Below the pieces are notes generated by a model that was not told the DNA's origin, ran no database searches, and saw nothing but the letters and a program-made list of their open reading frames with translations. 64,000 bases of DNA from an uncultured Myxococcales bacterium (GTDB taxonomy: Bacteria > Myxococcota_A > UBA9042 > DTJE01). This document shows, piece after piece, positions 1 to 23,191 of this stretch. Position 1 is the stretch's first letter. The number at the start of each line of letters is the position of its first letter. Location: the NCBI GenBank assembly GCA_903857665.1, contig CAIOFV010000061.1, positions 1 to 64,000 of the forward strand, given 5' to 3'. The translations under genes and the position numbers were made by a program.

Positions 1-19
1 AAAAAAAAAAAAAAAAAAA
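1..19. other. Poly-A run at window edge
   Basis: Nineteen consecutive A residues open the window, in a genome whose neighbouring sequence is about 70% GC. This looks like an assembly or contig-end artefact rather than a biological tract. Confidence 0.7.
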
Positions 20-465
20 GCCCCGAAGAGCTAAGGATGGACCCTGGGAAGGATCTCTCCGGCTCCTGCAGCTCCCGAGCGGCCGCCCGCATCGCGCGCC
101 GCTGCCCCTCCGCGCTCCCCATCGAACCTGCCGGCGCCCGGCCATCGCCCACCTCCCGTTCACGGCCTACCGCCGTGCCGGATCGGTATAGCGTCCGCCC
201 TCCGTTCCCGCAAGGTGCTCCTGCGGACGAACCCGGCCCGCCACCCGATTGCGATCGCGACGCTGCAGGGCGGGACCGGCCACCACTCCACGAAGACTGC
301 GCCCATCCCGCCCAGTCCGCGGTGCGCGGTGCAGCAAGAGCCCCGGGACCCGGTGGTCGAAAGGGCGAATGGCTTCCACGCCCCGAACCGGAGGGATCCC
401 TTGCGCCGCCTTGACTCCGGGACCCCCGATCCCCGATGCTTTCGCCCGTCGCCAGGAGAAGAAGA
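20..465. other. Gene-free stretch upstream of GH16 gene
   Basis: No convincing gene on either strand: the open frames here lack a ribosome-binding site and any recognisable protein family. The only signal seen is a weak promoter candidate at its right edge (411-440). Confidence 0.5.
411..440 (+). promoter_or_regulatory. Weak promoter candidate for the GH16 gene
   Basis: TTGACT (411-416) and GATGCT (435-440) are separated by 18 bp. The -35 is good, the -10 poor. It overlaps the alternative ATG at 436, which favours translation from 466. Confidence 0.3.
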
Positions 466-1383
466 ATGCGCTGGTTCGTGCTCCTGCTGCCCCTCGTCGT
501 GGCTTCCTGCAACTGGAACGCGGACTCGGCCCTCGGCTCCGACACGGCGTCGCCGGATGTGGCCCCCGGGACCGATGTCGGCCCCGATGTCGGCCCCGAC
601 GCCGTGGACCCCCGAGCCATCCCGGCGGACCAGGCCTTCCTGCCCGAGCCGCTGGCCGGCAAGAAATGGGTCCTGACCTTCCACGACGAGTTCGACGGGA
701 CCACCTTCGACCTGACGAAGTGGACCCTGTACGGCGGGACGATGGACAGCCCACAGCCCCGCCGCGACGGCTACTGGGTCCAGGAGGCGGTCACCCTCGA
801 CGGCCAGGGCCACGCGGCTATCACGGCCTTCGAGAAGGACGGGAAGTACTACGACGGCGGCTTCGGGACCGACGGCAGGTTCAACCAGGCCTTCGGCTAC
901 TGGGAGGTCCGGGCAATCCTCCAGAAGGACGAGGGCCACTGGTTCGGATGGTGGCTGATGCCTTTCGGCTCCAGCCAGCACGTCCAGGGGGGTACCGACG
1001 GCGCGGAGATCGACATCGCCGAGACGCCCTACGGCAAGCTCGCGCCCTCGCAGATCCAGTCGGCGGTCCACTGGGACATGGGCGAGGCCGACGACGCGCA
1101 GTGCCGCGGCGTCAACCTCGGGACTCTGCCGCCGCCCGCCGATCAGAAGGCCTTCCACACCCTGGCGGTGTGGTGGCGGTCCGACATGTACATCTTCTAC
1201 CTCGACGGCGTGGAGACCTGGCGCACCACGATCGGGGGCGTCAGCCAGGTCCCCGAGTACCCGATCCTGACCGACGAGATCTCCGACTCCACCTGGGTCA
1301 TGACCGACACGATCGAGAACGCCAAGCTGCCCGACGGGACGCTCATCGACTACGTCCGCGTCTTCGCCCTCGAGGACAAGTAG
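466..1383 (+). CDS. Secreted GH16 glycoside hydrolase lipoprotein
   Basis: Predicted 305-residue glycoside hydrolase of family 16 (laminarinase/lichenase/agarase fold), exported and lipid-anchored. A signal peptide ends in LVVASC (Cys15), then an Asp/Pro-rich tether runs to about residue 40, then a single jelly-roll catalytic domain. The GH16 active-site signature E-x-D-x-x-E is present as EIDIAE; from family knowledge its first Glu is the nucleophile and its last the acid/base. No carbohydrate-binding module is visible. An in-frame ATG lies at 436, but ATG 466 has AGGAGA six bases upstream and starts the signal peptide directly. The polysaccharide substrate cannot be told from sequence alone. 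The gene stands alone and converges with the antiporter gene. Confidence 0.85.
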   Translation: MRWFVLLLPLVVASCNWNADSALGSDTASPDVAPGTDVGPDVGPDAVDPRAIPADQAFLPEPLAGKKWVLTFHDEFDGTTFDLTKWTLYGGTMDSPQPRRDGYWVQEAVTLDGQGHAAITAFEKDGKYYDGGFGTDGRFNQAFGYWEVRAILQKDEGHWFGWWLMPFGSSQHVQGGTDGAEIDIAETPYGKLAPSQIQSAVHWDMGEADDAQCRGVNLGTLPPPADQKAFHTLAVWWRSDMYIFYLDGVETWRTTIGGVSQVPEYPILTDEISDSTWVMTDTIENAKLPDGTLIDYVRVFALEDK

Positions 1384-1479
1384 GTCCTTCCGCCCCCAGG
1401 CCCTGTCGCAGCACTCCCCGGTCGCAGCAGTGGGGTCGGGGGGTGCCGCAGGGTCAAGCCGGGCGGGCGTCGGCTGCAT

Positions 1480-2871
1480 TCAGCAGGAGGGACATCCCCC
1501 GCCGCCCACGGGCGGAACGACCTGCTCCTGGCCGCGCATCAGCCACCGGATGAGGGGGGTCGCGATGAAGGTGCTGAGAAGGGCCATGATGACCAGCTTC
1601 GTGAACATGCTCTGCGGAAGGACGCCGAGGTCGTACCCGATGTTCAGGGCCACGAGTTCCATGAGCGCCCGGGTGTTCATGCAGGTCGCGATGGTCAGCG
1701 CGCTGCGGTTGCTCTCCCGGACCGCGCGCGCCGCGACATAGACGCCTCCGAACTTGCCCGCGAACGCGATGACGCAAACCAGGACGCACTCGAACACCTG
1801 GAGGCCATCGTCCAGGGTTCCGATGTCGGTCCGCAGGCCCGTGTACAGGAAGAACGTCGGAAGAAAGAACGCGTTCACCAGCGGGGCGACCCGAGCCTTC
1901 CATTCCTCCACGAACCGCCGGTCATCGTGGACGGCCACGCCCACGACGAAGGCGCCGATGATCGCGAAGACGTTGAGGCTGCAGGTGACGACCGCGGCCG
2001 ACATCAGGACGATCAGGGTGATCCCGATGGTCGAGGGCGCAAGCCCCCCGTCGCGCTGGAAACGCGCCGCGAAGAACCGCTTCAGCAACGGTCTGACGAC
2101 CAGGAAGACCACCGCCAGGAAGACGATGATTCCACCCAGCCGCCAGGCGAGCCATTCGCCCGAGAACTGGTCGGTCGCGACCAGGGATACCACGCCCAGC
2201 AGCAGCCATCCCACCACGTCGTCGATCGCCGCCGCCGAGATCGTCAGCGCCGCCGTGGGGGTGTTCGACAGGCCCAGTTCCATGAAGATCCGGCCCAGGA
2301 TGGGGATGGCCGTGATCGACATGGCCGTGGCGAAGAACAACTGGAAGGCGAACACCGGGGGACGGGGATCGGGAAGATGGCCCCAGAACCAGGGTGCGGT
2401 CAGGAAGCCCAGAAGGAACGGCGTGACGATTCCCGCCATGCTCACGGCGACGATCCTGCGCTTGCCGGCCTGGAGGCTTGCCCCGAAATGGAATTCCTGC
2501 CCGATCTGGAACATCAGGAAGATCAGGCCGCATTGGGAGATCCCGACGAAGACCGTCGCGGTGGATGGATGGAACAACCGATGCATGAAGTCCGGGGCGA
2601 TGGCGCCCAGGAGGCTTGGCCCCAGGAGCAGCCCGGCGAGGATTTCGCCCGAAACGTCGGTCTGGCCCAGGCGTCTTGCCCCCACCACAACCACGCGGGT
2701 GGCCACCAGGACCGCGATGAGTTGGAAGAGCAGCCGCAGGACGAATTCCTCCGTGCGTCCGCCCGTAGGCGACACGGGGACCGCCTCGGTAGCGCTAGCC
2801 AGTGTACCTGCCACGCTGGACAGACCGGTGAGGAATGGAGAAAGGGCGAAAAACATGGCGGACGATATCAC
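1480..2871 (-). CDS. CPA2-type cation/proton antiporter
   Basis: A 463-residue integral membrane protein of the sodium/hydrogen exchanger superfamily (Kef/NapA-like). About 12 hydrophobic helices span the whole length. The paired acids of the transport site are visible in ISAAAIDDVVGW; in NapA-type proteins a DD pair goes with electrogenic Na+/H+ exchange. There is no C-terminal RCK/TrkA_N domain, so it is the short NapA-like form rather than full KefB/C. The C-terminus ends in a Gly/Cys-rich GGGGCPSC. A GTG start at 2871 follows AGGA closely; ATG 2856 is the alternative. It begins 29 bp after the halogenase-like gene on the same strand, so the two are probably co-transcribed. The transported ion (Na+ or K+) is not determinable. 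Confidence 0.85.
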   Translation of the reverse strand: MISSAMFFALSPFLTGLSSVAGTLASATEAVPVSPTGGRTEEFVLRLLFQLIAVLVATRVVVVGARRLGQTDVSGEILAGLLLGPSLLGAIAPDFMHRLFHPSTATVFVGISQCGLIFLMFQIGQEFHFGASLQAGKRRIVAVSMAGIVTPFLLGFLTAPWFWGHLPDPRPPVFAFQLFFATAMSITAIPILGRIFMELGLSNTPTAALTISAAAIDDVVGWLLLGVVSLVATDQFSGEWLAWRLGGIIVFLAVVFLVVRPLLKRFFAARFQRDGGLAPSTIGITLIVLMSAAVVTCSLNVFAIIGAFVVGVAVHDDRRFVEEWKARVAPLVNAFFLPTFFLYTGLRTDIGTLDDGLQVFECVLVCVIAFAGKFGGVYVAARAVRESNRSALTIATCMNTRALMELVALNIGYDLGVLPQSMFTKLVIMALLSTFIATPLIRWLMRGQEQVVPPVGGGGCPSC

Positions 2872-2900
2872 GTTTCCTGCGGATCAGGCCGCCACCCGCG

Positions 2901-4196
2901 TTATTTCTTGCGTTCCCAGGTGTGGAGATCCTGCCAGCGCTCGTGCATCCGACTGTCCTTGTCGCCGAACGACGAAACGACCGACTGGCAATACTGCTCG
3001 GACATGCCCGCCGTGAAGGCATCGCCCTTGAGGAAGGCCTTCTGCACGTGGGCCGCCGCCGCGCTGTTGTGGAGGACGTCGCCCGTGTACCAGAAGTTGA
3101 ACCCGTCCAGGGCCGCCACGATGAGGGCTTCGTACTGCGTGTTGTAGGCCTCGCTTACCTGCTCGCTCCAGCCGCCCTCGTTCAGGATCTTCGCGACCTG
3201 GATCGCCTTGTTCACGGCCAGGCCGGTTCCCACGGAATAGATCGGGTCCGCGAACGCGAACGAATCGGCGATGAGAATGTAGTCCTTGGTCGATGCCACC
3301 TTGGCCCTGCGGGCGAACATGTTGCGTACGTGCAGCCGGTTGTAGGGGGAACTGCCGTCGAAGGCACGGGGCCGCAGGACGTACTGTGGCCCGTGCGTCT
3401 TTTCGGCGAGTTCCAGCAACTGCTCCTGCGAAACCGGCGCGTGCCTCGACACCACGCCGAAACTCAGCCGGGTCGCATCGAACAGCGGGATCTGCCAGGT
3501 CCAGAGGCCCTGACTGATTTCCGTGAGGGTCGTCGTCCGGCTCGGCTTCCAGCCGTCGGTTTCTTCCCCGGCCAGAAGTTCGCCTTCCGGCACGTTGAAC
3601 CGGTAGTACTTCTTGCCGTCGTCCCGGATGGCCTGGTGGAACCGCTCGTCGTGGCGCTCCACGACGTCGAAGTAGGCCCAGGTCGAGAACGCCGGCATGA
3701 TCGTCGCGACTTCCCCGAGCAGCGTTCCCACCACCATCGCCGGCCCCGAGCAGTCGATGATCTGCTTTTCGACCTTGTACGATCCCTTGTCGGTCACGAC
3801 GACCTTCGTGGCAAAGTCGATCTCCTTGACCGTTTCCTGACTGATGGGGATGCCCCATTCATCGACCATCAGGCGTTCCAGCTCGGCCCGCTCGACGTGC
3901 ATCGCAAGGGCGGACAGGAAATCGGGCAACGGGAACGACACCACCACGTCCTGCTTGACGAACGTCGTTCCCCACTTCGGCGAGTAGGAAGGCAGTTCCC
4001 GGATCTTGGGGACCAGGTTGCGAATCACCAGATTGTGATAGTGCTCCGGGATGATGGATTCGCCGATCTTGTACTGGAAGGGGGCCGCATCGACGAGGAC
4101 CACGTTCTCGCTGGCCATGAACTTCTTCAGCGTGATTCCCGCCATTCCAGCGCCGATGATCAGATACTCAACGTTCTTCACTTCGACCTCCTTCAT
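2901..4196 (-). CDS. Flavin-dependent halogenase-like protein
   Basis: A 431-residue FAD-binding protein most like FADH2-dependent halogenases. An N-terminal Rossmann motif IIGAGMAG lies at residues 13-20. Lys74 in SPKWGTTF sits where the catalytic Lys of this family is expected (about 71-79 in characterised enzymes). LWTWQIP (232-237) exactly fits the W-x-W-x-I-P halogenase signature. A flavin-binding FADPIYSVGTG segment follows near the C-terminal third. Such enzymes chlorinate or brominate aromatic or enol carbons and need a separate flavin reductase, which is not seen nearby. No biosynthetic cluster surrounds it. The start is set by a promoter at 4273-4301; the upstream TTG at 4301 lies inside its -35. 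GC content is locally lower (about 50% around 4021-4080), suggesting transfer. A geranylgeranyl-reductase-like monooxygenase is the alternative. Confidence 0.7.
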   Translation of the reverse strand: MKEVEVKNVEYLIIGAGMAGITLKKFMASENVVLVDAAPFQYKIGESIIPEHYHNLVIRNLVPKIRELPSYSPKWGTTFVKQDVVVSFPLPDFLSALAMHVERAELERLMVDEWGIPISQETVKEIDFATKVVVTDKGSYKVEKQIIDCSGPAMVVGTLLGEVATIMPAFSTWAYFDVVERHDERFHQAIRDDGKKYYRFNVPEGELLAGEETDGWKPSRTTTLTEISQGLWTWQIPLFDATRLSFGVVSRHAPVSQEQLLELAEKTHGPQYVLRPRAFDGSSPYNRLHVRNMFARRAKVASTKDYILIADSFAFADPIYSVGTGLAVNKAIQVAKILNEGGWSEQVSEAYNTQYEALIVAALDGFNFWYTGDVLHNSAAAAHVQKAFLKGDAFTAGMSEQYCQSVVSSFGDKDSRMHERWQDLHTWERKK

Positions 4197-4272
4197 TCGC
4201 CCGGTTGATGCTGGCTTCCCAAGGTTCGTTCCACCCGCGTTGAAAACAAGTCTCTTCGGATGATCGAATGCG

Positions 4273-4301
4273 ATAAGACCAGAAGCACAAAAGCCTGTCA
4301 A
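4273..4301 (-). promoter_or_regulatory. Sigma-70-like promoter of the halogenase-antiporter unit
   Basis: On the minus strand TTGACA (4301-4296) and TCTTAT (4278-4273) are separated by 17 bp. The predicted start site near 4266 leaves a leader of about 70 bases before ATG 4196. Confidence 0.6.
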
Positions 4302-4361
4302 GGACTCCCGCGAGCCGGTGGAATGCGATGCCCGATGCCCTCCGGCAGAGGGGTGCCGACG

Positions 4362-4925
4362 CTACTTCACGGTCACTTTCTGCATCACGACGCTGGTCTT
4401 CGGACAGTCGTTGCCGTCGCGCGGTACGGCGACGATCTTCGCGACGACGTCCATCCCTTTCGTGACCTGGCCGAACAGGTTGTACTTCTTGGGCAACTGG
4501 CCCTTCAGGTTGTCGGTGCAGATGAAGAACTGGCTGCCGTTGGTGTTGGGGCCGGAGTTGGCCATCGCGACGGCGCCCTTCACGTAGTCGCCCTTGACCG
4601 GTTCGTCCGCGAACTCATGACCGGATCCGCCGCTGCCCCACTTCTTCTTTTTCAACGGGTCCTTCGTCAGCGGGTCGCCGCCCTGGATGACGAAGCCGGG
4701 CACGACGCGGTGGAACAGCGTGCCGTCGTAGAAGCCCTTCCGGGCCAGCGCGACGAAGTTCTCGACGGACTTCGGGGCATTGGCCGGGTAGAGCTCCATC
4801 TCGATGGTACCCAGCGTCGTTTCGATGGTGACGACGGGGTTGCCGGCCTTGGCGCCCTTGGACAGAACGGGCGGGCACACCGCCAGCATCGACACGGCGA
4901 TCGCGAACATGGGCAGGGTCCTCAT
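4362..4925 (-). CDS. Periplasmic cyclophilin-type peptidyl-prolyl isomerase
   Basis: A 187-residue peptidyl-prolyl cis-trans isomerase that catalyses proline isomerisation during folding of exported proteins. A signal peptide (MRTLPMFAIAVSMLAVCPP) is followed by one complete cyclophilin domain. Visible core motifs are FHRVVPGFVIQGGDP, MANSGPNTNGSQFFI and YNLFGQV, which include the catalytic Arg and the Gln/Phe pocket residues. AGGAG lies seven bases before ATG 4925. ATTGTA at 4976-4981, read on the minus strand as TACAAT, is a plausible -10 without a good -35. It lies upstream of the halogenase gene on the same strand, but that gene has its own promoter, so the two are probably separate units. 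Confidence 0.92.
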   Translation of the reverse strand: MRTLPMFAIAVSMLAVCPPVLSKGAKAGNPVVTIETTLGTIEMELYPANAPKSVENFVALARKGFYDGTLFHRVVPGFVIQGGDPLTKDPLKKKKWGSGGSGHEFADEPVKGDYVKGAVAMANSGPNTNGSQFFICTDNLKGQLPKKYNLFGQVTKGMDVVAKIVAVPRDGNDCPKTSVVMQKVTVK

Positions 4926-5060
4926 GGACGACTCCTACGTGGGGCCCGGGGCCCGTCCCCGGACGTGATGAGGCGATTGTAGCGCGCCTTCCGGAAGCCG
5001 GGGTCGCCCGGTTGGCCGGAGGCCGGAGCACGCGCTCCTGACCAGGGCGCTGCCGAAGGT

Positions 5061-6341
5061 TCACCCTCCTTCGGCGTCGGCCGGCACGACACCGAAGCCC
5101 TCGGCGCCATGCAATGCCACGTAGGCGCGCCAGACGCCGATGCACCGATCGTCCCAGCGGCACTGGCGGCAGGACGACCATTTCATGCGCTCGTAGGGCA
5201 CGACGGCACCGGCGGCCGCCCGCGTGGATGTCCAGAAGAAGCGCGCGTGGCCGGGCAGCACGCAGGGTGGCAGGCCGCAGGTGTCGGGCACCATCGCCTG
5301 CAGCCCCAGGGCCTCGGCGCGCTCGAGGGCACGGCCCAGCGCGGGCGCCACGTCGGGGATTCGCGGCCACAGGTGCCGGTTGGCCTCCATGCGACCGTGG
5401 GGGGTGGCGAACGAGAACATCACTTCCATCTTGCGCAGGTGATTGGGGTATGTCGCAGCCAGGAAGCCGGGGAAGGCGTCGATCTCGTCGGCGTTCAGGG
5501 TGGTGACGACGAAGTTCACGCGGACGTAGATGCCGCGGGCCAGCGCGATGCGGATGGCGTCCAGCTTCCGATCGAGCCGCGCGCCCGGCACCCCCACCAG
5601 GGCCGCCAGGCGTTCGGGGTGCTGCGTGTGCAGGCTGACCAGCAGCACGTCGGGCAGGTCGGGGCGGCCGTCGGGGCCCACGTAGGCGTCCCACGCGCCC
5701 GGGTCATCCAGAAGCACCGCGTTGGTCTGCACGTCCGCCTTCAGCCCCAGTTCGTGGATGCGCCGGATCCAGCGCGGCAGCTCGGGCCGCAGCGTCGGCT
5801 CGCCGCCGGTCAGCGTCACCACGTTCACGCCCATGCCCGGCGCCCGCTCGATCAGCGACTCGACCTCGGCGGACGACTCGGCCACGTTGATCGCGGAGTC
5901 GCCGGTGCCGCAGAACGGGCAGAGTTCGTTGCAGCGAAGCGTCACGCGCACCTCGAGCGACTCGCCGGTGGCTGCCACGCCCCTGGGCACCTCGAAATAG
6001 CGCGCCAGGTGATGGTCGATACCCCGCGCCTCCCAGTGGCGCAGGATTTCGGCCATCGCGAGAATGAGCTGCAGCGCCTGCGGATCCGGCGGCTCGCCCA
6101 GATGCCCCAGGCGGTGATGCGCGGTCTGGGCGAACGAACGCTCGGCATCCTCCAGCCGGCAGACCCATACGATGAACGACAGGCCCGCCTTCCGCCAGAC
6201 CAGCTCGATTCGGCCGCACAGTCGCACGTCCTCCAGTTCGTACCCGAGCACGAGGGGCCCGCGTCGGAACAACGGCGCGAGCAGCGCGCGCAGTTCCGGA
6301 TCGAGCGGCTGGAGTACCGGCGGCAGGGCGGGCGCGGACAT
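5061..6341 (-). CDS. Radical SAM protein with C-terminal Cys-rich extension
   Basis: A 426-residue radical S-adenosylmethionine enzyme. The cluster-binding C-x3-C-x2-C motif is RCNELCPFC (Cys137, 141, 144), followed by the SAM-binding LTGGEPTLRPEL. An unusual N-terminal domain of about 130 residues precedes the barrel. The C-terminus carries five further cysteines (CGLPPC and CRQCRWDDRC), reminiscent of SPASM/twitch auxiliary Fe-S clusters. The substrate is unknown; no RiPP precursor is recognisable next door. ATG 6341 has GGAGG seven bases upstream and a well-formed promoter at 6370-6398. Its neighbours upstream are a secreted hydrolase and a methyltransferase on the same strand, but the separate promoter argues against strict co-transcription. 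Confidence 0.85.
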   Translation of the reverse strand: MSAPALPPVLQPLDPELRALLAPLFRRGPLVLGYELEDVRLCGRIELVWRKAGLSFIVWVCRLEDAERSFAQTAHHRLGHLGEPPDPQALQLILAMAEILRHWEARGIDHHLARYFEVPRGVAATGESLEVRVTLRCNELCPFCGTGDSAINVAESSAEVESLIERAPGMGVNVVTLTGGEPTLRPELPRWIRRIHELGLKADVQTNAVLLDDPGAWDAYVGPDGRPDLPDVLLVSLHTQHPERLAALVGVPGARLDRKLDAIRIALARGIYVRVNFVVTTLNADEIDAFPGFLAATYPNHLRKMEVMFSFATPHGRMEANRHLWPRIPDVAPALGRALERAEALGLQAMVPDTCGLPPCVLPGHARFFWTSTRAAAGAVVPYERMKWSSCRQCRWDDRCIGVWRAYVALHGAEGFGVVPADAEGG

Positions 6342-6369
6342 CGTCGGTCCTCCCACGGATCGCATCGCA

Positions 6370-6398
6370 TCTATACCGGACCGGCCCGTGCGCGGCAA
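6370..6398 (-). promoter_or_regulatory. Sigma-70-like promoter of the radical SAM gene
   Basis: On the minus strand TTGCCG (6398-6393) and TATAGA (6375-6370) have a 17-bp spacer and lie about 30 bp before the start codon. Confidence 0.5.
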
Positions 6399-6426
6399 CC
6401 CGCAGCCTTCCCGGCAAGGCACAGCC

Positions 6427-7896
6427 TCACGGTTGGCTCTTGAACACGACCTCGTCCGGCAGCCCCGGATCAACGAGCCAGGTGGCGAACGGCTGGGGCA
6501 GCCCGAAGATCCGTTGCAGGAACGCCAGCGAGAAGCTCTGCACCAGTTCGAACTGCCGGTTCCGGGCCAGGATGCCCGGGTCGCTTCCGTTCGGCGTTCC
6601 GTCCCACAGTTTGTCGTCGGTGAACTGGCTGTGGTTGCCGCCCTGCAGGTTGGCCAGGTACTTCGGGGCCTGCAACTGGTCGTACACCCCATCGAACGTC
6701 GATGCGCTGGACTGCCCGTCCTGGCTGCCTCCAATCACGAGGCCCGGCACAGGGAACAGGCTCTGTCCGTAGGGGCTGGTGGTCGTGTACACCGGCCCCA
6801 GGAACACGACGGCCTGGACCGGCGCTGAGGTGGAAAGGAGCTGCAGCGTGCGCTCGGCGCCCATGGAATGGCAGAACACGACGGCACTGCCGCCCGCGCC
6901 CCTCCCGGCCAGTTCCGGCAGCCAGTCCTGGGGCGAATTCAGGCCCTTGTCGATGATCTGCTGGTGATCCCAGTTGGCGACGCTGCCGGGGATGGCAGCC
7001 AGGAAGCCCCAGCTGGCCAGGTGGCGGCCCAGGTATTCGTATTCGAGGCTGGCGCAGCCATCCCCGTGCAGGATCAGCACGAACGGGAACGTCCCGCTGG
7101 CGGGAGGCCGGCGCATCCCGCCGCACGTGGCGGGATAGAACACGCGCAGGCCCGACGAGTTCACGCTGGCATCCACGAAGCCCACCGCATAGGGGCCGGC
7201 GACGGCGGCTTCCGCGCCCGGGACCCCGGTGGCCGGCGGATCGTCGGGCTGGCAGGGCTGCACGGTCCTGTAGGCGGTCGATGTATCGATCGGCGCCTGG
7301 TACTGCGCGGAACCGCCAAGCCCGCTGACGGTCAGCACGCCCGAAGCGCCGGCGGGGCGAGGGATGACCAGCCGGTTCTCGTCGATGTCCATCGACAGGG
7401 CCCCGACCGAGACGGCGCCGATCTTCACCGTGGTGCTGAACTGCAGGAAGCCCGCGCCATCGACCACCAGGAAGTCGCCCGGAGCCCCCTGGACAGGATA
7501 CACGCTGAGGATCGCAGGCCTGGTTCCCCATCCCGGGGCGCGGTCCTCGCACCCGCCGCTGGAAAGGTTGCAGGTGGCGTCGTTGCCGCAGGCGGACGAG
7601 CGCCGGCAGGGCGGGATCGAGGGCCCGACCTCGCCCTTCGCGTCATCGACGTCGTCGTTCGCATCCGGGGCCCCTCCCGGGTCCGAGGCGGTCCCATCGG
7701 CCCCCGGGCCCAGGTCCGTCGCGGCATCGAAGCCCCGATCCTCCCGGGGAAGGTCGCCCGGCTCGTCGCCAGGGTCGGCCCGGTCCACCATCGGCACGTC
7801 CCGCGACCACCCGTCCGCGACGACGTCGCCCGCGCTCGAGCCCGAACCGCACCCGAGCGCCACCACGCCGAACACCATCACCAGGCGACGAGACAT
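6427..7896 (-). CDS. Secreted alpha/beta-hydrolase lipoprotein (PETase/chlorophyllase-like)
   Basis: A 489-residue exported hydrolase. A signal peptide ends in ALGC, followed by a long Asp/Pro-rich tether (to about residue 95), a small Cys-rich patch, an IPT/TIG-like beta-sandwich, and a C-terminal alpha/beta-hydrolase domain. The nucleophile elbow reads CHSMG, with Cys replacing the first Gly of G-x-S-x-G. Acid and base candidates are in GGSQDGQ and GGNHSQF. The HGDGCAS segment may form the oxyanion hole. The domain resembles the dienelactone hydrolase/chlorophyllase/PET-hydrolase branch, so an ester substrate is likely but not identifiable. The start at 7896 has GGAGG eight bases upstream. 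It lies 46 bp downstream of the methyltransferase gene on the same strand and may share its transcript. Confidence 0.75.
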   Translation of the reverse strand: MSRRLVMVFGVVALGCGSGSSAGDVVADGWSRDVPMVDRADPGDEPGDLPREDRGFDAATDLGPGADGTASDPGGAPDANDDVDDAKGEVGPSIPPCRRSSACGNDATCNLSSGGCEDRAPGWGTRPAILSVYPVQGAPGDFLVVDGAGFLQFSTTVKIGAVSVGALSMDIDENRLVIPRPAGASGVLTVSGLGGSAQYQAPIDTSTAYRTVQPCQPDDPPATGVPGAEAAVAGPYAVGFVDASVNSSGLRVFYPATCGGMRRPPASGTFPFVLILHGDGCASLEYEYLGRHLASWGFLAAIPGSVANWDHQQIIDKGLNSPQDWLPELAGRGAGGSAVVFCHSMGAERTLQLLSTSAPVQAVVFLGPVYTTTSPYGQSLFPVPGLVIGGSQDGQSSASTFDGVYDQLQAPKYLANLQGGNHSQFTDDKLWDGTPNGSDPGILARNRQFELVQSFSLAFLQRIFGLPQPFATWLVDPGLPDEVVFKSQP

Positions 7897-7942
7897 CGGC
7901 GCAACCTCCGCAAGAGAATCGTCGGCGGCCATGCCGGCGCGC

Positions 7943-8755
7943 TCAAGGCGTCGTCCCGGCGATCTGGGCCAGCCTGGGCACGGCATAGAACGCCGCTTCG
8001 TCCACCACCAGTCCCTCCAGTTCCCGCACCAGGGCCAGCGCGGCCTCCTCGCTGACGATCCCGGCCTTGCGCGCGGCTGCCAGGCCCTCCTTCAGCCCGC
8101 CGAGGACCAGCGCCTTCGCCACACCGACGGGCAGGATGGGCTGGACGAACCGCGCGACCGCCGGGGCCAGCCCGGACCGGATGAAGATCGAGTACAGCCG
8201 ATCACCGATGTCCAGGTCCAGGCCGGCCGCCGCGCCAAGACGCAGGAACCCGTCGTTCACCCGGTGGAAGGCGTCGATCCGGGGCACCGTGAGCAGCGAG
8301 CGGGTGGCGGGTTCTTCGCAGGCCAGCACGCCCCCCGGGACCAGGGACCGGCACATCCGGTCGATCGTGGCATCCGGCGCCCGAAGGTGCATCAGCAGGA
8401 ATCGGCAGCAGGCGACGTCGAAACCGCGCTGTGGGAGGTCCAGGCCCTCCGCGGGGGAACAGACGAACGTCACGTTCCGGCATCCCGCCTCGGCGCACCG
8501 GGCCTGCGCGAACTCGATCTGCCGAGGGCTGGCATCCACGGCCACCACCCGGCCCTCGCATCCGACCGTTTCCGCGAGGAACCGGGTCATGTTCCCGGTT
8601 CCGCACCCGACTTCCAGCACCGACAGGCCCGGCCGCAGCCCGGCATCCAGCAGGAACCGGCGGCTGCAGGGCCCGAAGATGTCGTTGACGAGGTCCAACC
8701 GGGCAGCGCCTTCGGTGCCTACCTTCAGCAGGTACTCGTCCACGGACAACTCCAT
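7943..8755 (-). CDS. Class I SAM-dependent methyltransferase
   Basis: A 270-residue methyltransferase with a Rossmann fold. Motif I is VLEVGCGTGNM, the acidic loop is VVAVDASPRQI, and motif IV is in FDVACCRFLLMHL. The closest general type is the Methyltransf_25/UbiE-like group acting on small molecules; the substrate is unknown. A C-terminal region of about 90 residues is helical and may cap the active site. The start at ATG 8755 lies only about 9 bases after the predicted transcription start of the promoter at 8771-8799 and has no strong ribosome-binding site, so it may be translated from a very short leader. It is divergent from the hybrid histidine kinase and upstream of the secreted hydrolase. 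Confidence 0.85.
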   Translation of the reverse strand: MELSVDEYLLKVGTEGAARLDLVNDIFGPCSRRFLLDAGLRPGLSVLEVGCGTGNMTRFLAETVGCEGRVVAVDASPRQIEFAQARCAEAGCRNVTFVCSPAEGLDLPQRGFDVACCRFLLMHLRAPDATIDRMCRSLVPGGVLACEEPATRSLLTVPRIDAFHRVNDGFLRLGAAAGLDLDIGDRLYSIFIRSGLAPAVARFVQPILPVGVAKALVLGGLKEGLAAARKAGIVSEEAALALVRELEGLVVDEAAFYAVPRLAQIAGTTP

Positions 8756-8770
8756 CCACGGGAGAGGCCC

Positions 8771-8799
8771 AGTGTATTCGCGGACCCAGTGACGCTCAA
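8771..8799 (-). promoter_or_regulatory. Promoter candidate for the methyltransferase gene
   Basis: On the minus strand TTGAGC (8799-8794) and TACACT (8776-8771) have a 17-bp spacer. The resulting leader would be very short. Confidence 0.4.
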
Positions 8800-8830
8800 G
8801 CGATGACCTTCGCGGCAGGCCGGACACACG

Positions 8831-8860
8831 TTGCAGACTCGCTCCCGGCGGGCGTATATT
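8831..8860 (+). promoter_or_regulatory. Sigma-70-like promoter of the hybrid histidine kinase
   Basis: TTGCAG (8831-8836) and TATATT (8855-8860) are separated by 18 bp. It lies downstream of the ATG at 8803, which excludes that start for transcripts made from here. Confidence 0.55.
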
Positions 8861-8892
8861 GCCCGTGCAGCACATCCCAGAGAGGCACGAAC

Positions 8893-11649
8893 TTGGAAGC
8901 CGGCAACCCGTTCACCCTCCAGGAATACGGCGACCTGATCGAAAACCTGGGGGACGGCGTCGTGGTCGGTTCCCGGCGGACCGGGATCATGCTGTGCAAC
9001 CGCCGCGCGGCCGAGCTTCTGGGCCTGTCCCGCGACCTCCTGATGGGGACGAGGGCAGCGGATCCCATCTGGCAGTTCGTCCGAGCGGACGGCTCTGCGA
9101 TGCCTGCCGACGAGTACCCGTCCACCCGGGTCTACCGGACCGGCCAGGCGATCGAGGGTCTGGTGCTGGGCATCGATCGACCGGGCAGAAACGATCGTGT
9201 CTGGACCCTGGTCGATGCCACGCCCCACCTCGACGCCGAGGGCGGGATCGCCCACGTGGTCGTCGCCTACCATGACATCACGGCGCTGAAGCTCGCCGAA
9301 GAGGCGCTGCAGGATTCCGAGGCCCGGTATCGGGCGGTGTTCGACAACAGCCCCGACGGCATCCTGGTCATCGATTCGGAGTTCCAGACCTTCCGGGTCG
9401 CGAACCGCACGATCGGCCGGTTCCTGGGATACGAACCCGAGGAACTGGTGGGCCGCGGGTTCGCGGACATCCACCCGGCCGCGTCGCTGGACCACGTCCG
9501 CGCCTGCGCCAGGGCGCTTGCAAAGGGTGAAATCGACGTCGCCACCGACATCCCTTGCGTGAGGAAGGACGGGTCGATCGTGTCGTTCGACATCCGTTCG
9601 CACCTCCTGGTCATCGGTGGGAGGCCCTGCCTGGTGGGCCGGTTCCTGGACCTGACCGACCGCCAGCGGGCCGAGCGCGCGTTGCAGGAAAGCCGGGCGC
9701 TGCAGGCCAGCGAGGAGCGCTACCGGGCGGTGGTGGAGGACCAGACCGAGCTCATCTGCCGCTTCAAGGCCGATGGGACCTTGACGATCGTCAACGATGT
9801 CTTGTGCAGGTTCTTCGGACAGGACCGCGAGCACCTCGTCGGCTCGAAATGGCAGCCTCAGGCCGCGGCCGAGGACCTGCCCATGATCGAGGCGTGCCTG
9901 CGCGCGCAGACGCCGGACAACCCCGTCGTGGTCATCGAGAACCGCGTGCAGTCCGGCACCGGCGAGACCCGCTGGATGCAGTTCGTCAACCGGGCCTTCT
10001 TCGATGCCGACGGAAGGCTGCTGGAAACCCAGGCCGTCGGGCGGGACATCACCGACCACAAACGGGCGGACGAGGAACTGGCGCACTACCGCGATCGGCT
10101 CGAGGATCTGGCGCTCCAGCGGGCCGCTGAACTGACGCAGAGCGAGGACCGCTATCGCCGCCTCGTGGACGCCTTGCCGGACGCAATCATGGTCCACGTC
10201 GATGGCCGCTTCGTCTTCGCCAACCCGGCTGCGGCAACCATCTTCCGGGCACCCGGGCCCGAAGCCCTGGTGGGGCTGTCCCTCCTGGACCTGGTGTCCT
10301 CGAACTTCAAGGAGAGGGTCGGGAGGCGTATCCAGGACGTCTACCTGGAGGAAACGGTCGCCCCTCGCATCGAGGAGAAGGTCATCGGGTTCGACGGCAC
10401 CGAGATCGACGTCGATGTCGAGACCGTCCCGGTGGTCGTCGGCGGGCAGCCCGCCGGGTTGTCCATCGTGCGCGACATCACGGTCCAGAGGCGCTACGAG
10501 CAGGAGATGCGGAACTCGCAGAAGCTGGAAAGCGTGGGCCTGCTGGCGGGCGGCATCGCGCACGACTTCAACAACCTGCTGTCGGCCATCCTCGGCAACA
10601 TCTCGCTGGCCCGGCTGGAACCGTCGGTCAGCACCGAAATCGAAACGCGGCTGGTCCAGGCCGAGCGCGCCGTGGGCCGGGCGATCAACCTGACCCAGCA
10701 ACTGCTGACCTTCGCGCGGGGAGGCGCGCCGATCCGCCAGGCGACGGTCCTGCGATCCTTGCTGACGGAAACCGCGGACTTCGCCCTCCGGGGGAGCAGC
10801 GTCGCCTGCCGGTACGATATCGCGGACGACCTCTGGGCCGCGAACGTCGATGAGGGCCAGGTGAGCCAGGTGATCCACAACATCGTCATCAACGGGCAGC
10901 AGGCGATGCCTTCGGGTGGCACCCTGAAGATATCCGCACGAAACGTCCAGATCCAGCCTGGGGATCCCTCGCCCCTTCGGCCGGGACGGTACGTCCACTT
11001 GTCCATCCAAGACAGCGGCATCGGCATCCAGCCCGAGCATCAGCAGCGCATCTTCGACCCCTACTTCACCACGAAGACGAAGGGCAGCGGCCTGGGACTG
11101 GCGGTATGCCATTCCATCGTCATGCAGCACGGGGGGCGGATCGAGGTCGAATCGACCCAGGGCCGCGGCTCGACCTTCCACATCCTCCTTCCGGCCGCAC
11201 GGGAGGCCCCGATGGAAGCCCGAGCCGCGCAGATGCCCGCCGGCCCCGCGGCCAGAAAGGGGCGCGTGCTGCTGATGGACGACGACAAGGACCTGCTGTT
11301 CGCCCAGTCGGGGATCCTCGAAGCCCTGGGCTACAGGACGGACACGGCGACGGACGGCCAATCGGCCCTCCGCGCCTATACCCGGGCCGCGGACGTGGGC
11401 AACCCGTATGACGCGGTGATCCTCGACCTGACGGTCCCGGGCGGCATGGGCGGGAAGGAGGCCGTGGAGCGGTTGCTGGAGTTCGACCCCGACGCGCGCG
11501 TCATCGTGTCGAGCGGCTACTCGAACGATCCCGTGATGGCAAACCATGCCGCGTACGGCTTCAAGGGCGTGCTGCCCAAGCCCTGCCTCGTGGACCGCAT
11601 GGCAGAAACCCTTCGACGGGTCATCAGCGGGGAAACGGAAGGCGACTGA
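8893..11649 (+). CDS. Four-PAS hybrid histidine kinase with receiver domain
   Basis: A 918-residue cytoplasmic sensor kinase with no transmembrane helix. Four PAS domains occupy about residues 16-125, 145-265, 275-395 and 418-535. An NtrB-type dimerisation/phosphoacceptor helix follows with His557 in HDFNNLLSAILGN. The HATPase has an N box (IHNIVINGQQAMPSGG), a G1 box (DSGIGI) and GSGLGLAV. A C-terminal receiver domain has Asp845 in VILDLTVPG and conserved Lys in GVLPKP. The signal is probably a small ligand or redox state sensed by the PAS domains. The start is taken as TTG 8893, with GAGAGG eight bases upstream; ATG 8803 would lie upstream of the promoter at 8831-8860. No partner regulator is adjacent, so phosphotransfer targets are unknown. 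Confidence 0.92.
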   Translation: MEAGNPFTLQEYGDLIENLGDGVVVGSRRTGIMLCNRRAAELLGLSRDLLMGTRAADPIWQFVRADGSAMPADEYPSTRVYRTGQAIEGLVLGIDRPGRNDRVWTLVDATPHLDAEGGIAHVVVAYHDITALKLAEEALQDSEARYRAVFDNSPDGILVIDSEFQTFRVANRTIGRFLGYEPEELVGRGFADIHPAASLDHVRACARALAKGEIDVATDIPCVRKDGSIVSFDIRSHLLVIGGRPCLVGRFLDLTDRQRAERALQESRALQASEERYRAVVEDQTELICRFKADGTLTIVNDVLCRFFGQDREHLVGSKWQPQAAAEDLPMIEACLRAQTPDNPVVVIENRVQSGTGETRWMQFVNRAFFDADGRLLETQAVGRDITDHKRADEELAHYRDRLEDLALQRAAELTQSEDRYRRLVDALPDAIMVHVDGRFVFANPAAATIFRAPGPEALVGLSLLDLVSSNFKERVGRRIQDVYLEETVAPRIEEKVIGFDGTEIDVDVETVPVVVGGQPAGLSIVRDITVQRRYEQEMRNSQKLESVGLLAGGIAHDFNNLLSAILGNISLARLEPSVSTEIETRLVQAERAVGRAINLTQQLLTFARGGAPIRQATVLRSLLTETADFALRGSSVACRYDIADDLWAANVDEGQVSQVIHNIVINGQQAMPSGGTLKISARNVQIQPGDPSPLRPGRYVHLSIQDSGIGIQPEHQQRIFDPYFTTKTKGSGLGLAVCHSIVMQHGGRIEVESTQGRGSTFHILLPAAREAPMEARAAQMPAGPAARKGRVLLMDDDKDLLFAQSGILEALGYRTDTATDGQSALRAYTRAADVGNPYDAVILDLTVPGGMGGKEAVERLLEFDPDARVIVSSGYSNDPVMANHAAYGFKGVLPKPCLVDRMAETLRRVISGETEGD

Positions 11650-21289: not shown

Positions 21290-23191
21290 ATGGCCACTGA
21301 CGTCGATGTCCTGGTCGCGGGTGCGGGGCTGGCCGGCGCGGTGATGGCGCGGCGCCTCAGCGAAGGCTTCGGCCTGCGCTGCCTGGTCATCGACCGCCGG
21401 GACCACGTGGGCGGCCTGTGCCACGACGCCATCGATCGGCACGGGGTCCGGGTGCCGTCCTTCGGTCCCCACTGGTTCCGCACCGATTCCGCCCGCGTCC
21501 GCGACTTCCTGGACCGTTTCACCGCGTGGCGCGAGGTGGCGTTCAAGGTGCAGGTGTGGGCCCGCGGACGCTACTGGTCCTTCCCGATCAACCTCGCCAC
21601 GTTCGAGCAGTTCCTGGGCAGCCCCTCCACGGCCGGCGAGATGGAGGCTGCGCTTGGCCGGTGGCGCGAGCCGATCGCGACTCCGCGAAACTCGGAGGAG
21701 TACGTGCTGTCCCGCGTGGGGCGGCCCTTCTTCGAACTGTTCTACGAGGGATACACGCGCAAGCAGTGGGGACGGGAGGCGCGCGACCTGGACCCGTCGG
21801 CCTGCGGGCGCATCCCGATCCGCACCGACCGGGACGACCGCTACCTGGCGCAGCGGTTCCAGGGGATGCCGGCCGACGGCTACACCCGGATGTTCGAGCG
21901 GATCCTGGACTACCCGGGCATCGAGGTCCGCCTGCGGACCGGGTTGCACGAGATCCGTGACGCCGTCCCCCACCGGCACCTCGTGTGGACGGGCCCCGTG
22001 GACGAGTTCTTCGATCGCGGCGAGGGACCCTTGCCCTGGCGCTCCCTGAGGTGGGAGAGGGAGACCGTCGAGGGACGGTATTGCCTGCCGACGATGCAGG
22101 TGAACTTCCCCGACGAACACGAATACACCCGCATCATCGAGCCGAAGCACGCCACCGGACAGGTGCTGCCCGTGACCACGATCGTCCGCGAGTTCCCGCT
22201 GGACGGTCGCCCGGATCGGGAGCCGTTCTACGCGATCCCGGCCCCGGACGCCGCGGCGGTCCATCGGCGGTACCTGGAACGGGTCGCGCGGGAGGCGGAC
22301 ACGACGTTCCTGGGCCGCTTCGCCGAGTACCGGAACCTGGACATGGACCAGGTCGTCGAACGCGCCCTGGACGCGGCCGAGCGCCTGGGCGCGGCGCTGG
22401 GGGCGGGCGCGGCGCTGGGGGCGGGCGCGGGCATCGACCTGCGTCCCGGCTCCACACGGACCGTTCGTCCCCTGAGGCGCAGGCACGATCCCTTGGAGCC
22501 GCCGGCCGTGATCGACCTGGAGGTCGTGGTGGCGCGCCACGCCGAGCCGGTCGCCTGGGTGCGGAACGTGCCCTCGTCCGCCCGGGTGAGCGTGTACGAC
22601 AAGGGCGGCGACCTGGACCCCGGCCGGCTGCCGTGGGCCCGCATCGAGCGCCTCGAGAACGTGGGGCACGAGGCGCACGCGTACCTGCACCACCTGGTCG
22701 AGCGCTACGACGACCTCGCCGAGGTGACGTTCTTCTGCCAGGGCCACCCCTTCGACCACGCCTGGGATCTGCACGACGTCCTGCGGGCGGTCGCCGCCGG
22801 CCGCGAGCGCGTGGCGGGCTTCCGATGGCTGGGCTTCGTCATCGACACCGACGACCCGCTGGGCCACCGCCTGTTCGTGCCGTGGACCAAGAACCTGGAC
22901 GGTCGCGAACTGCACGTGGATCGGTTCCACGAAACCCTGTTCGGCGCGCCGGCACCCCAACACATCCCGTTCTACCTGGGCGCCCAGTTCGCGGTGACCG
23001 CGGCGCAGGCCCGCACGCGCCCCCGCGACTTCTACCGGCAGGCCCGGGACCTGGCCCGATCCTTTCCCGACGCGGCCCACTGCTTCGAACGCCTGTGGGA
23101 CCGGGTCTTCGGCGTGCAGGGCGTCGAACCGGGCCTCCTGGGAGGGGAGATGCGCCGCTACCTGCGGTCGGTCAAGCGTCCGCGGCCGTGA
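21290..23191 (+). CDS. UDP-galactopyranose mutase fused to a DUF3431 domain
   Basis: A 633-residue two-domain protein. Residues 1 to about 370 match UDP-galactopyranose mutase/protoporphyrinogen-oxidase-like flavoproteins: FAD-binding VAGAGLAGAVMARRLS, then DRRDHVGGLCHD, FGPHWFRT and YEGYTRKQWG. These enzymes interconvert UDP-galactopyranose and UDP-galactofuranose with reduced flavin. After a Gly/Ala linker encoded by an 18-bp tandem repeat (22391-22426), residues from about 405 match DUF3431, with VVVARHAEPVAWV, VYDKGGD, NVGHEAHAYLHHLV and VTFFCQGHPFDHA. DUF3431 proteins are often found with glycan biosynthesis genes and may be glycosyltransferase-like. The fusion suggests linked roles in surface polysaccharide formation. 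ATG 21290 is preferred over GTG 21284; neither has a strong ribosome-binding site. Confidence 0.78.
   Translation: MATDVDVLVAGAGLAGAVMARRLSEGFGLRCLVIDRRDHVGGLCHDAIDRHGVRVPSFGPHWFRTDSARVRDFLDRFTAWREVAFKVQVWARGRYWSFPINLATFEQFLGSPSTAGEMEAALGRWREPIATPRNSEEYVLSRVGRPFFELFYEGYTRKQWGREARDLDPSACGRIPIRTDRDDRYLAQRFQGMPADGYTRMFERILDYPGIEVRLRTGLHEIRDAVPHRHLVWTGPVDEFFDRGEGPLPWRSLRWERETVEGRYCLPTMQVNFPDEHEYTRIIEPKHATGQVLPVTTIVREFPLDGRPDREPFYAIPAPDAAAVHRRYLERVAREADTTFLGRFAEYRNLDMDQVVERALDAAERLGAALGAGAALGAGAGIDLRPGSTRTVRPLRRRHDPLEPPAVIDLEVVVARHAEPVAWVRNVPSSARVSVYDKGGDLDPGRLPWARIERLENVGHEAHAYLHHLVERYDDLAEVTFFCQGHPFDHAWDLHDVLRAVAAGRERVAGFRWLGFVIDTDDPLGHRLFVPWTKNLDGRELHVDRFHETLFGAPAPQHIPFYLGAQFAVTAAQARTRPRDFYRQARDLARSFPDAAHCFERLWDRVFGVQGVEPGLLGGEMRRYLRSVKRPRP
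22391..22426 (+). repeat. Two perfect 18-bp tandem repeats encoding the interdomain linker
   Basis: GCGGCGCTGGGGGCGGGC occurs twice in tandem and encodes AALGAG twice. It marks the boundary between the mutase and DUF3431 domains. Confidence 0.9.

Follow-up and report, generated by a model that had tools for sequence, protein, structure and literature searches.

Do a halogenase-type flavoenzyme gene and a cation/proton antiporter gene belong together when they stand next to each other without the usual biosynthetic surroundings, and does the flavoenzyme halogenate? The question is raised by a locus near the start of the window, i.e. the whole stretch of 64,000 nucleotides that was analysed. 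Taken as a whole, our best reading is a two-component halogenase of the PltA/CmlS/CndH group that was acquired together with a NapA-type antiporter, which would serve protection or gradient upkeep. This reading is tentative and falls just short of an even chance. The pair is interesting and not categorically new.

Both open reading frames are real. The two genes are neighbours on the same strand (minus), with the flavoenzyme gene upstream and the antiporter gene downstream, and are flanked by a cyclophilin gene and a GH16 hydrolase gene (Table 1). The initial annotation had placed a DD-type CPA2 antiporter 29 bp downstream of the enzyme, and both the type and the distance (counted to the GTG) were confirmed. 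A scan of this gap found no terminator-like site. The annotated isolation of the pair was borne out as well: a Pfam scan that covered 27 genes of the window showed no biosynthetic cluster, flavin reductase, substrate pathway or carrier protein. A search for riboswitches (fluoride or other) in positions 1–9000 was negative.

Table 1. Positions of the features of the locus in the window; residues of the flavoenzyme are counted from ATG 4196
Feature	Position	Strand	Remarks
GH16 hydrolase gene	466..1383	+	Left-hand border; genus-native
CPA2 cation/proton antiporter, NapA-like	1480..2871	-	Start GTG 2871 (463 aa) or ATG 2856 (458 aa); no RCK/TrkA-N domain
Conserved Lys373 (A-F-A-G-K-F-G-G)	1753..1755	-	Aligns with Lys in NapA G-K-V-L-G
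Asp-Asp (I-D-D) of the ion site	2218..2223	-	Antiporter residues 217-218; aligns with NapA ID-D
Gap from flavoenzyme stop to antiporter GTG	2872..2900	-	29 bp; 44 bp if the antiporter starts at its ATG
FAD-dependent halogenase-type enzyme (PF04820; PltA/CmlS/CndH-like)	2901..4196 or, more likely, 2901..4181	-	431 aa from ATG 4196; 426 aa from GTG 4181
F-A-D-P-I-Y-S-V-G (FxxPxxSxG), third signature motif of flavin-dependent halogenases	3228..3254	-	Residues 315-323
W-T-W-Q-I-P (WxWxIP)	3486..3503	-	Residues 232-237
Lys74 codon (Lys69 from GTG 4181), in P-K-W-G-T-T-F	3975..3977	-	Aligns with Lys of PltA/CmlS/CndH
GxGxxG flavin-binding motif	4137..4154	-	Residues 15-20
Shine-Dalgarno AAGGAGGT (perfect)	4186..4193	-	4 nt before GTG 4181; agrees with starts of family members
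Possible promoter	4273..4301	-	TTGACA (4296-4301), 17 bp, TCTTAT (poor -10); by eye
Cyclophilin gene	4362..4925	-	Right-hand border of the two-gene insert; genus-native

The flavoenzyme had been annotated from TTG 4301, which is too far out. In the family alignment, all members start just before the (V/D)YLIIGAG segment. Because of this alignment and the perfect AAGGAGGT, GTG 4181 is the more likely start, from which the predicted protein begins MKNVEYLIIGAG. For GTG 4181, five has to be subtracted from the residue numbers given here. The strong promoter that had been proposed was not found in a promoter scan upstream of the gene, and by eye only a TTGACA with a poor –10 box could be seen. The locally low GC content stood as a measurement (61.7% in the flavoenzyme gene, –2.3 sd), but not as a sign of foreignness. 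As the third-position GC (0.87, –0.8 sd) and the codon usage (–0.8 sd) were ordinary, the low value is attributed to the amino-acid composition, and a foreign origin by composition was rejected.

GxGxxG, WxWxIP and FxxPxxSxG form the motif trio used for mining flavin-dependent halogenases (PMC12645471), and all three are present. The annotated Rossmann motif and the exact W-x-W-x-I-P were thus found again. So was the lysine at the expected catalytic position: Lys74 aligns with the lysine of the K-x-G-x-x-F/W segment of PltA, CmlS and CndH, which we take to be their catalytic residue. Conservation of this lysine in close homologues had been set beforehand as a test of the annotation, and it was invariant in all 17 family members. 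Within WxWxIP, W234 and I236 were invariant in the same alignment, and the first W was replaced by F in two members.

The PF04820 (Trp_halogenase) match of the flavoenzyme reached 29.6 bits, above the curated cut-off of 21, and 15/17 family members matched at E ≤ 0.01. A single-sequence search of the PDB with the flavoenzyme matched CmlS, CndH and PltA. The profile of the 17 members matched CmlS (E 1e-22), the uncharacterised flavoprotein 3nix (8e-20), CndH (6e-19) and PltA (1e-18), followed by Mpy16, FasV, ChlB4 and RadH; halogenases dominated the list, and both Lys74 and WxWxIP aligned with their halogenase counterparts. Structure prediction, which the initial annotation had proposed as a check, gave an AlphaFold2 model (pLDDT 86, pTM 0.85) with PltA as the best Foldseek match (E 7e-21, TM about 0.67), i.e. 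a halogenase fold. The assignment to the flavin-dependent halogenases therefore holds for both sequence and predicted fold. With the FADH2-dependent halogenases of the PltA/CmlS/CndH/Mpy16 type, the enzyme shares the fold, the three motifs, the aligned catalytic Lys and a KxGES segment. Unlike them, it is not encoded near a carrier protein or an assembly line and belongs to a separate clade, and the identity in structural alignments was 15–19%. Judged by sequence, it is a real, well-conserved, uncharacterised halogenase-type enzyme.

An antiporter is considered a CPA2 antiporter of the NapA type here when it has a full Na_H_Exchanger domain, the Asp-Asp site, the conserved Lys and no RCK domain. 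All four features were found; the Na_H_Exchanger match covered profile positions 8–374 of 375 (Pfam, E 5e-50). The CPA2 subfamily model TIGR00932 scored 119 bits, below its NCBIfam cut-off of 238, though Pfam's cut-off was reached. The alignment with the electrogenic Na+/H+ antiporter NapA is full-length and includes the ID-D site and the Gly-Lys. In contrast to NapA, the window antiporter has a longer N-terminus, and its subclade is absent from the rest of the class and is found near oxidative tailoring genes.

Both genes are rare. Clear relatives of the flavoenzyme numbered 16 in 84,980 species, with two fragmentary or weak matches set apart. They are mostly labelled Myxococcota (including Plesiocystis pacifica SIR-1), plus two Omnitrophota copies. 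In the window's own group, 7 of 89 other genomes held a clade member (one as two pieces), and none of these was of the same genus or family. Of the 52 genomes of its class, only this one had the antiporter. The same genus held antiporter paralogues of 36–40% identity only, and a 39% paralogue lies elsewhere in the window's genome. A phylum-wide search gave nine closer relatives, 51–65% identical over aligned columns. Among plasmid-borne sequences, matches to the antiporter were below 40% only, and no relatives of the flavoenzyme were found.

Close relatives of both genes were thus missing from the genus and the family, while the flanking genes were 88–89% identical in a genome of the same genus (G001). 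Flanks that are native to the genus around two inner genes that are not argue against a chimeric contig end and for co-acquisition, and this pattern suggests that the two genes were acquired jointly. As G001 has the two flanking genes at different loci, the genus offers no clean empty site for comparison.

Whether the pairing recurs elsewhere was answered differently from the two sides. On the enzyme side, the proposed halogenase–CPA2 adjacency did not stand: none of the 16 relatives had the antiporter nearby (within 10 kb on either side, or less where a contig ended sooner), so no conserved synteny was found in the clade, and clustering of the neighbours gave no common partner. Radical SAM genes recurred beside several members; they were abundant in control loci too and were rejected as a shared partner. 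On the antiporter side, the adjacency stood in part. For two of the nine relatives (G088 and G367), the genome has a single PF04820 gene, which is no more than 1.2 kb away; the enzymes encoded there belong to branches of the family other than that of the window flavoenzyme. In G088, the PF04820 gene is the second gene downstream; its enzyme has WMWDIN in place of WxWxIP and may hence be devoid of halogenating activity. In G367, it is a divergent neighbour cut by the contig end. Two further relatives (G563 and G566) end an operon of FMO, FMN dehydrogenase and P450 genes, to which G563 adds a haem-oxygenase-like gene; these calls rest on Pfam for four G563 genes and the G566 FMO and on similarity for the remaining G566 genes. 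Another relative (G471) lies inside an NRPS/PKS cluster. No oxidative, halogenase-family or NRPS/PKS gene was seen near the relatives in G476, G354 and G517, and the locus in G235 is cut by a contig end. Two PF04820 genes within 2.5 kb compare with 0.011 expected (nominal P 6e-5, with window and distance set after the loci had been seen). Because of this choice, the association is suggestive: a strong lead and not proof.

The most serious alternative is that the two genes are accidental neighbours, an ordinary antiporter for pH/Na+ homeostasis and a separate orphan halogenase. This has a fair share of the probability, somewhat below one half. The adjacency is not conserved in the enzyme clade, and CPA2 antiporters are common, as the paralogue elsewhere in the genome illustrates. 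Accident does not readily account, however, for two rare acquisitions that ended up adjacent and co-directional between native flanks, nor for an antiporter clade that is repeatedly found with oxidative or halogenase-family genes. That the flavoenzyme and the antiporter share a function is possible, at a little less than even.

A broader proposal is that this Myxococcota subclade of NapA-like antiporters is a dedicated accessory of oxidative and halogenating small-molecule pathways. It would have been recruited independently by flavin halogenases of different branches, by FMO/P450 operons and by NRPS/PKS clusters. The minimal halogenase–antiporter pair would then act as a unit of two genes that provides both a halogenated metabolite (a weak acid or an ionophore) and protection from it. 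We regard this as doubtful. If the link is true, orphan loci for halogenation or oxidation could be searched for through the antiporter, and ion homeostasis would be a generic strategy of self-protection, as fluorinase clusters hint.

The second alternative concerns the chemistry. The flavoenzyme could be a halogenase-fold monooxygenase (a hydroxylase or desaturase) like QhpG or LodB, which does not halogenate and has merely inherited the lysine and WxWxIP. This is unlikely, though it keeps some weight. QhpG and LodB are maturases of tryptophylquinone enzymes; their fold is related, their profiles are weakly similar in the half that holds FAD and WxWxIP, and distant NCBIfam matches to QhpG and LodB were found in 10/17 and 7/17 members. 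QhpG has a CmlS-like structure yet dihydroxylates Trp (PMC7876137). Moreover, 3nix ranked as high as the halogenases in both the profile and the Foldseek search and also has the lysine of K-x-G-x-x-F. On the other hand, the scores of the flavoenzyme against the QhpG and LodB models (30.2 and 34.2 bits) were far below the cut-offs (240 and 400), and the CmlS model, searched alongside, scored higher than both. The CmlS score (equivalog NF033113) was itself 40.4 bits against a trusted cut-off of 900, and with this clade every NCBIfam halogenase model stayed far short of its cut-off. The clade is divergent, yet K74 and the core of WxWxIP do not vary within it, whereas the channel residues of QhpG at the corresponding positions are Val72 and Trp74 (PMC7876137). 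The role of the lysine has been reviewed together with the argument that WxWxIP blocks hydroxylation (PMC10696468). QhpG and LodB also hydroxylate protein Trp, whereas there are no quinoprotein genes at the window locus. Because the clade is remote, 3nix is as close as the halogenases and a hydroxylase can have a CmlS-like structure, sequence and model together make a true halogenase only moderately probable. Should it turn out to be a hydroxylase, Lys and WxWxIP would be insufficient to call a halogenase.

Under the preferred reading of a halogenase with a co-acquired antiporter, the flavoenzyme would be a two-component (FADH2-accepting) flavin-dependent halogenase of the PltA/CmlS/CndH group. 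Its reduced FAD would come from a reductase encoded elsewhere in the genome. With O2, the reduced FAD would form a C4a-hydroperoxide and oxidise chloride or bromide to HOX. The HOX would then travel through a tunnel, pass the WxWxIP strand and reach Lys74 (Lys69); positioned by this residue, it would halogenate a small, electron-rich molecule. The antiporter would probably be made from the same transcript, and as a NapA-type Na+/H+ exchanger it would most likely guard the cell against acid or ionophore stress from the product; alternatively, it may maintain the ion gradients that drive product expulsion. Halogenated phenols and pyrroles are well-known uncouplers, and such uncoupling would explain the antiporter.

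There are precedents for such a combination. In Streptomyces cattleya and Nocardia brasiliensis, the fluorinase cluster also encodes FlH, a Na+/H+ antiporter (PMC3999930). Among the gene classes controlled by fluoride riboswitches, Na+/H+ antiporters rank second in frequency (PMC11139923). The likeness to the fluorinase FlA and FlH is one of gene content, a halogenating enzyme and a Na+/H+ antiporter in one cluster; FlA is SAM-dependent and unrelated to the flavin halogenases, and the fl cluster is a full pathway. The pairing and the fluorinase cluster (PMC3999930) could also suggest that the antiporter itself moves halide or a halogenated anion in exchange for protons, as the initial annotation had considered. 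This is very unlikely: in its ion-site DD and its Lys, the antiporter agrees with NapA, which exchanges cations, and the biochemically proven halide/proton antiporters, CLC-F, belong to a different family (PMC11139923). A NapA-type sequence points more plausibly to pH/Na+ homeostasis than to halide/proton coupling or product carriage. An assembly artefact, in which the contig end (the first 4.3 kb) stems from another organism, would fit two genes foreign to the genus in a window whose first position is the contig end and which opens with 19 A's in a row, but is highly improbable, as the GH16 gene nearer the contig end is 89% and the cyclophilin gene on the other side 88% identical to same-genus genes and the codon usage is ordinary.

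The enzyme clade is a candidate source of flavin-dependent halogenases that are encoded away from biosynthetic clusters, and most of its members have an accessory domain of their own. This extra C-terminal domain comprises about 120 aa and was modelled as a helix, five strands and a long helix. It matched no Pfam or NCBIfam family and no convincing PDB chain. The domain is missing from the window copy, from one other member (L021) and from the divergent Omnitrophota copies. The tree does not place the window copy and L021 as sisters, which makes two separate losses of the domain probable. The N-terminal domain of the radical SAM protein encoded in the window (5061–6341) resembles it by eye; the similarity was not significant, and a link was rejected. 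At one relative's locus (L031), the extra domain of the enzyme family forms the N-terminus of a radical SAM protein that is encoded divergently beside the enzyme.

Most relatives of the halogenase-type flavoenzyme ended in an unnamed C-terminal domain of ~120 aa, which is covered by neither a Pfam nor an NCBIfam family. Besides the copies in loci L025 and L028 from other genomes, further members of the enzyme family carried it. In locus L031, the domain was found at the N-terminal side of the radical SAM protein adjoining the enzyme gene. The N-terminal ~110 aa of the window's own radical SAM protein resembled it by eye, with a similarity that was not significant. In L056, the C-terminal part of a radical SAM fusion protein was nitrogenase-like, and a copy of the domain may lie between the two parts.

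Antiporters of the window's subclade occurred in two further settings. In two genomes of a single family (L095 and L097), the CPA2 antiporter shared one operon with three oxidative genes, and L095 had a haem-oxygenase-like gene as an extra member. These operons look like a small oxidative pathway equipped with its own antiporter. In L096, the antiporter sat within an NRPS/PKS-type cluster, which encoded condensation, aminotransferase and PP-binding domains as well as ABC transporters and a carbamoyltransferase-like protein.

Features in the window and in loci from other genomes (L; numbered within each locus)
Feature	Location	Strand
Accessory domain, C-terminal in enzyme relative	L025:11222-11605	
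Accessory domain, C-terminal in enzyme relative	L028:11222-11563	
Radical SAM protein with N-terminal accessory domain, beside enzyme	L031:329-1405	-
Radical SAM protein, two genes upstream of enzyme	window 5061-6341	-
Radical SAM/nitrogenase-like fusion	L056:5773-8442	+
FAD monooxygenase/FMN-dependent dehydrogenase/P450/CPA2 antiporter operon	L095:8334-14722	
FAD monooxygenase/FMN-dependent dehydrogenase/P450/CPA2 antiporter operon	L097:3985-9614	
NRPS/PKS-type cluster containing subclade antiporter	L096:1-15698	
UDP-galactopyranose mutase-like/DUF3431 fusion	window 21290-23191	+

Elsewhere in the window, a UDP-galactopyranose mutase-like domain and DUF3431 were fused in one protein. The contig started with 19 consecutive A's (window 1-19), probably an assembly or adapter artefact. 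One member of the myxobacterial enzyme clade (L033, CAMDBH010000079.1) lay on a contig labelled as a Klebsiella pneumoniae MAG, most likely a mislabelled bin.
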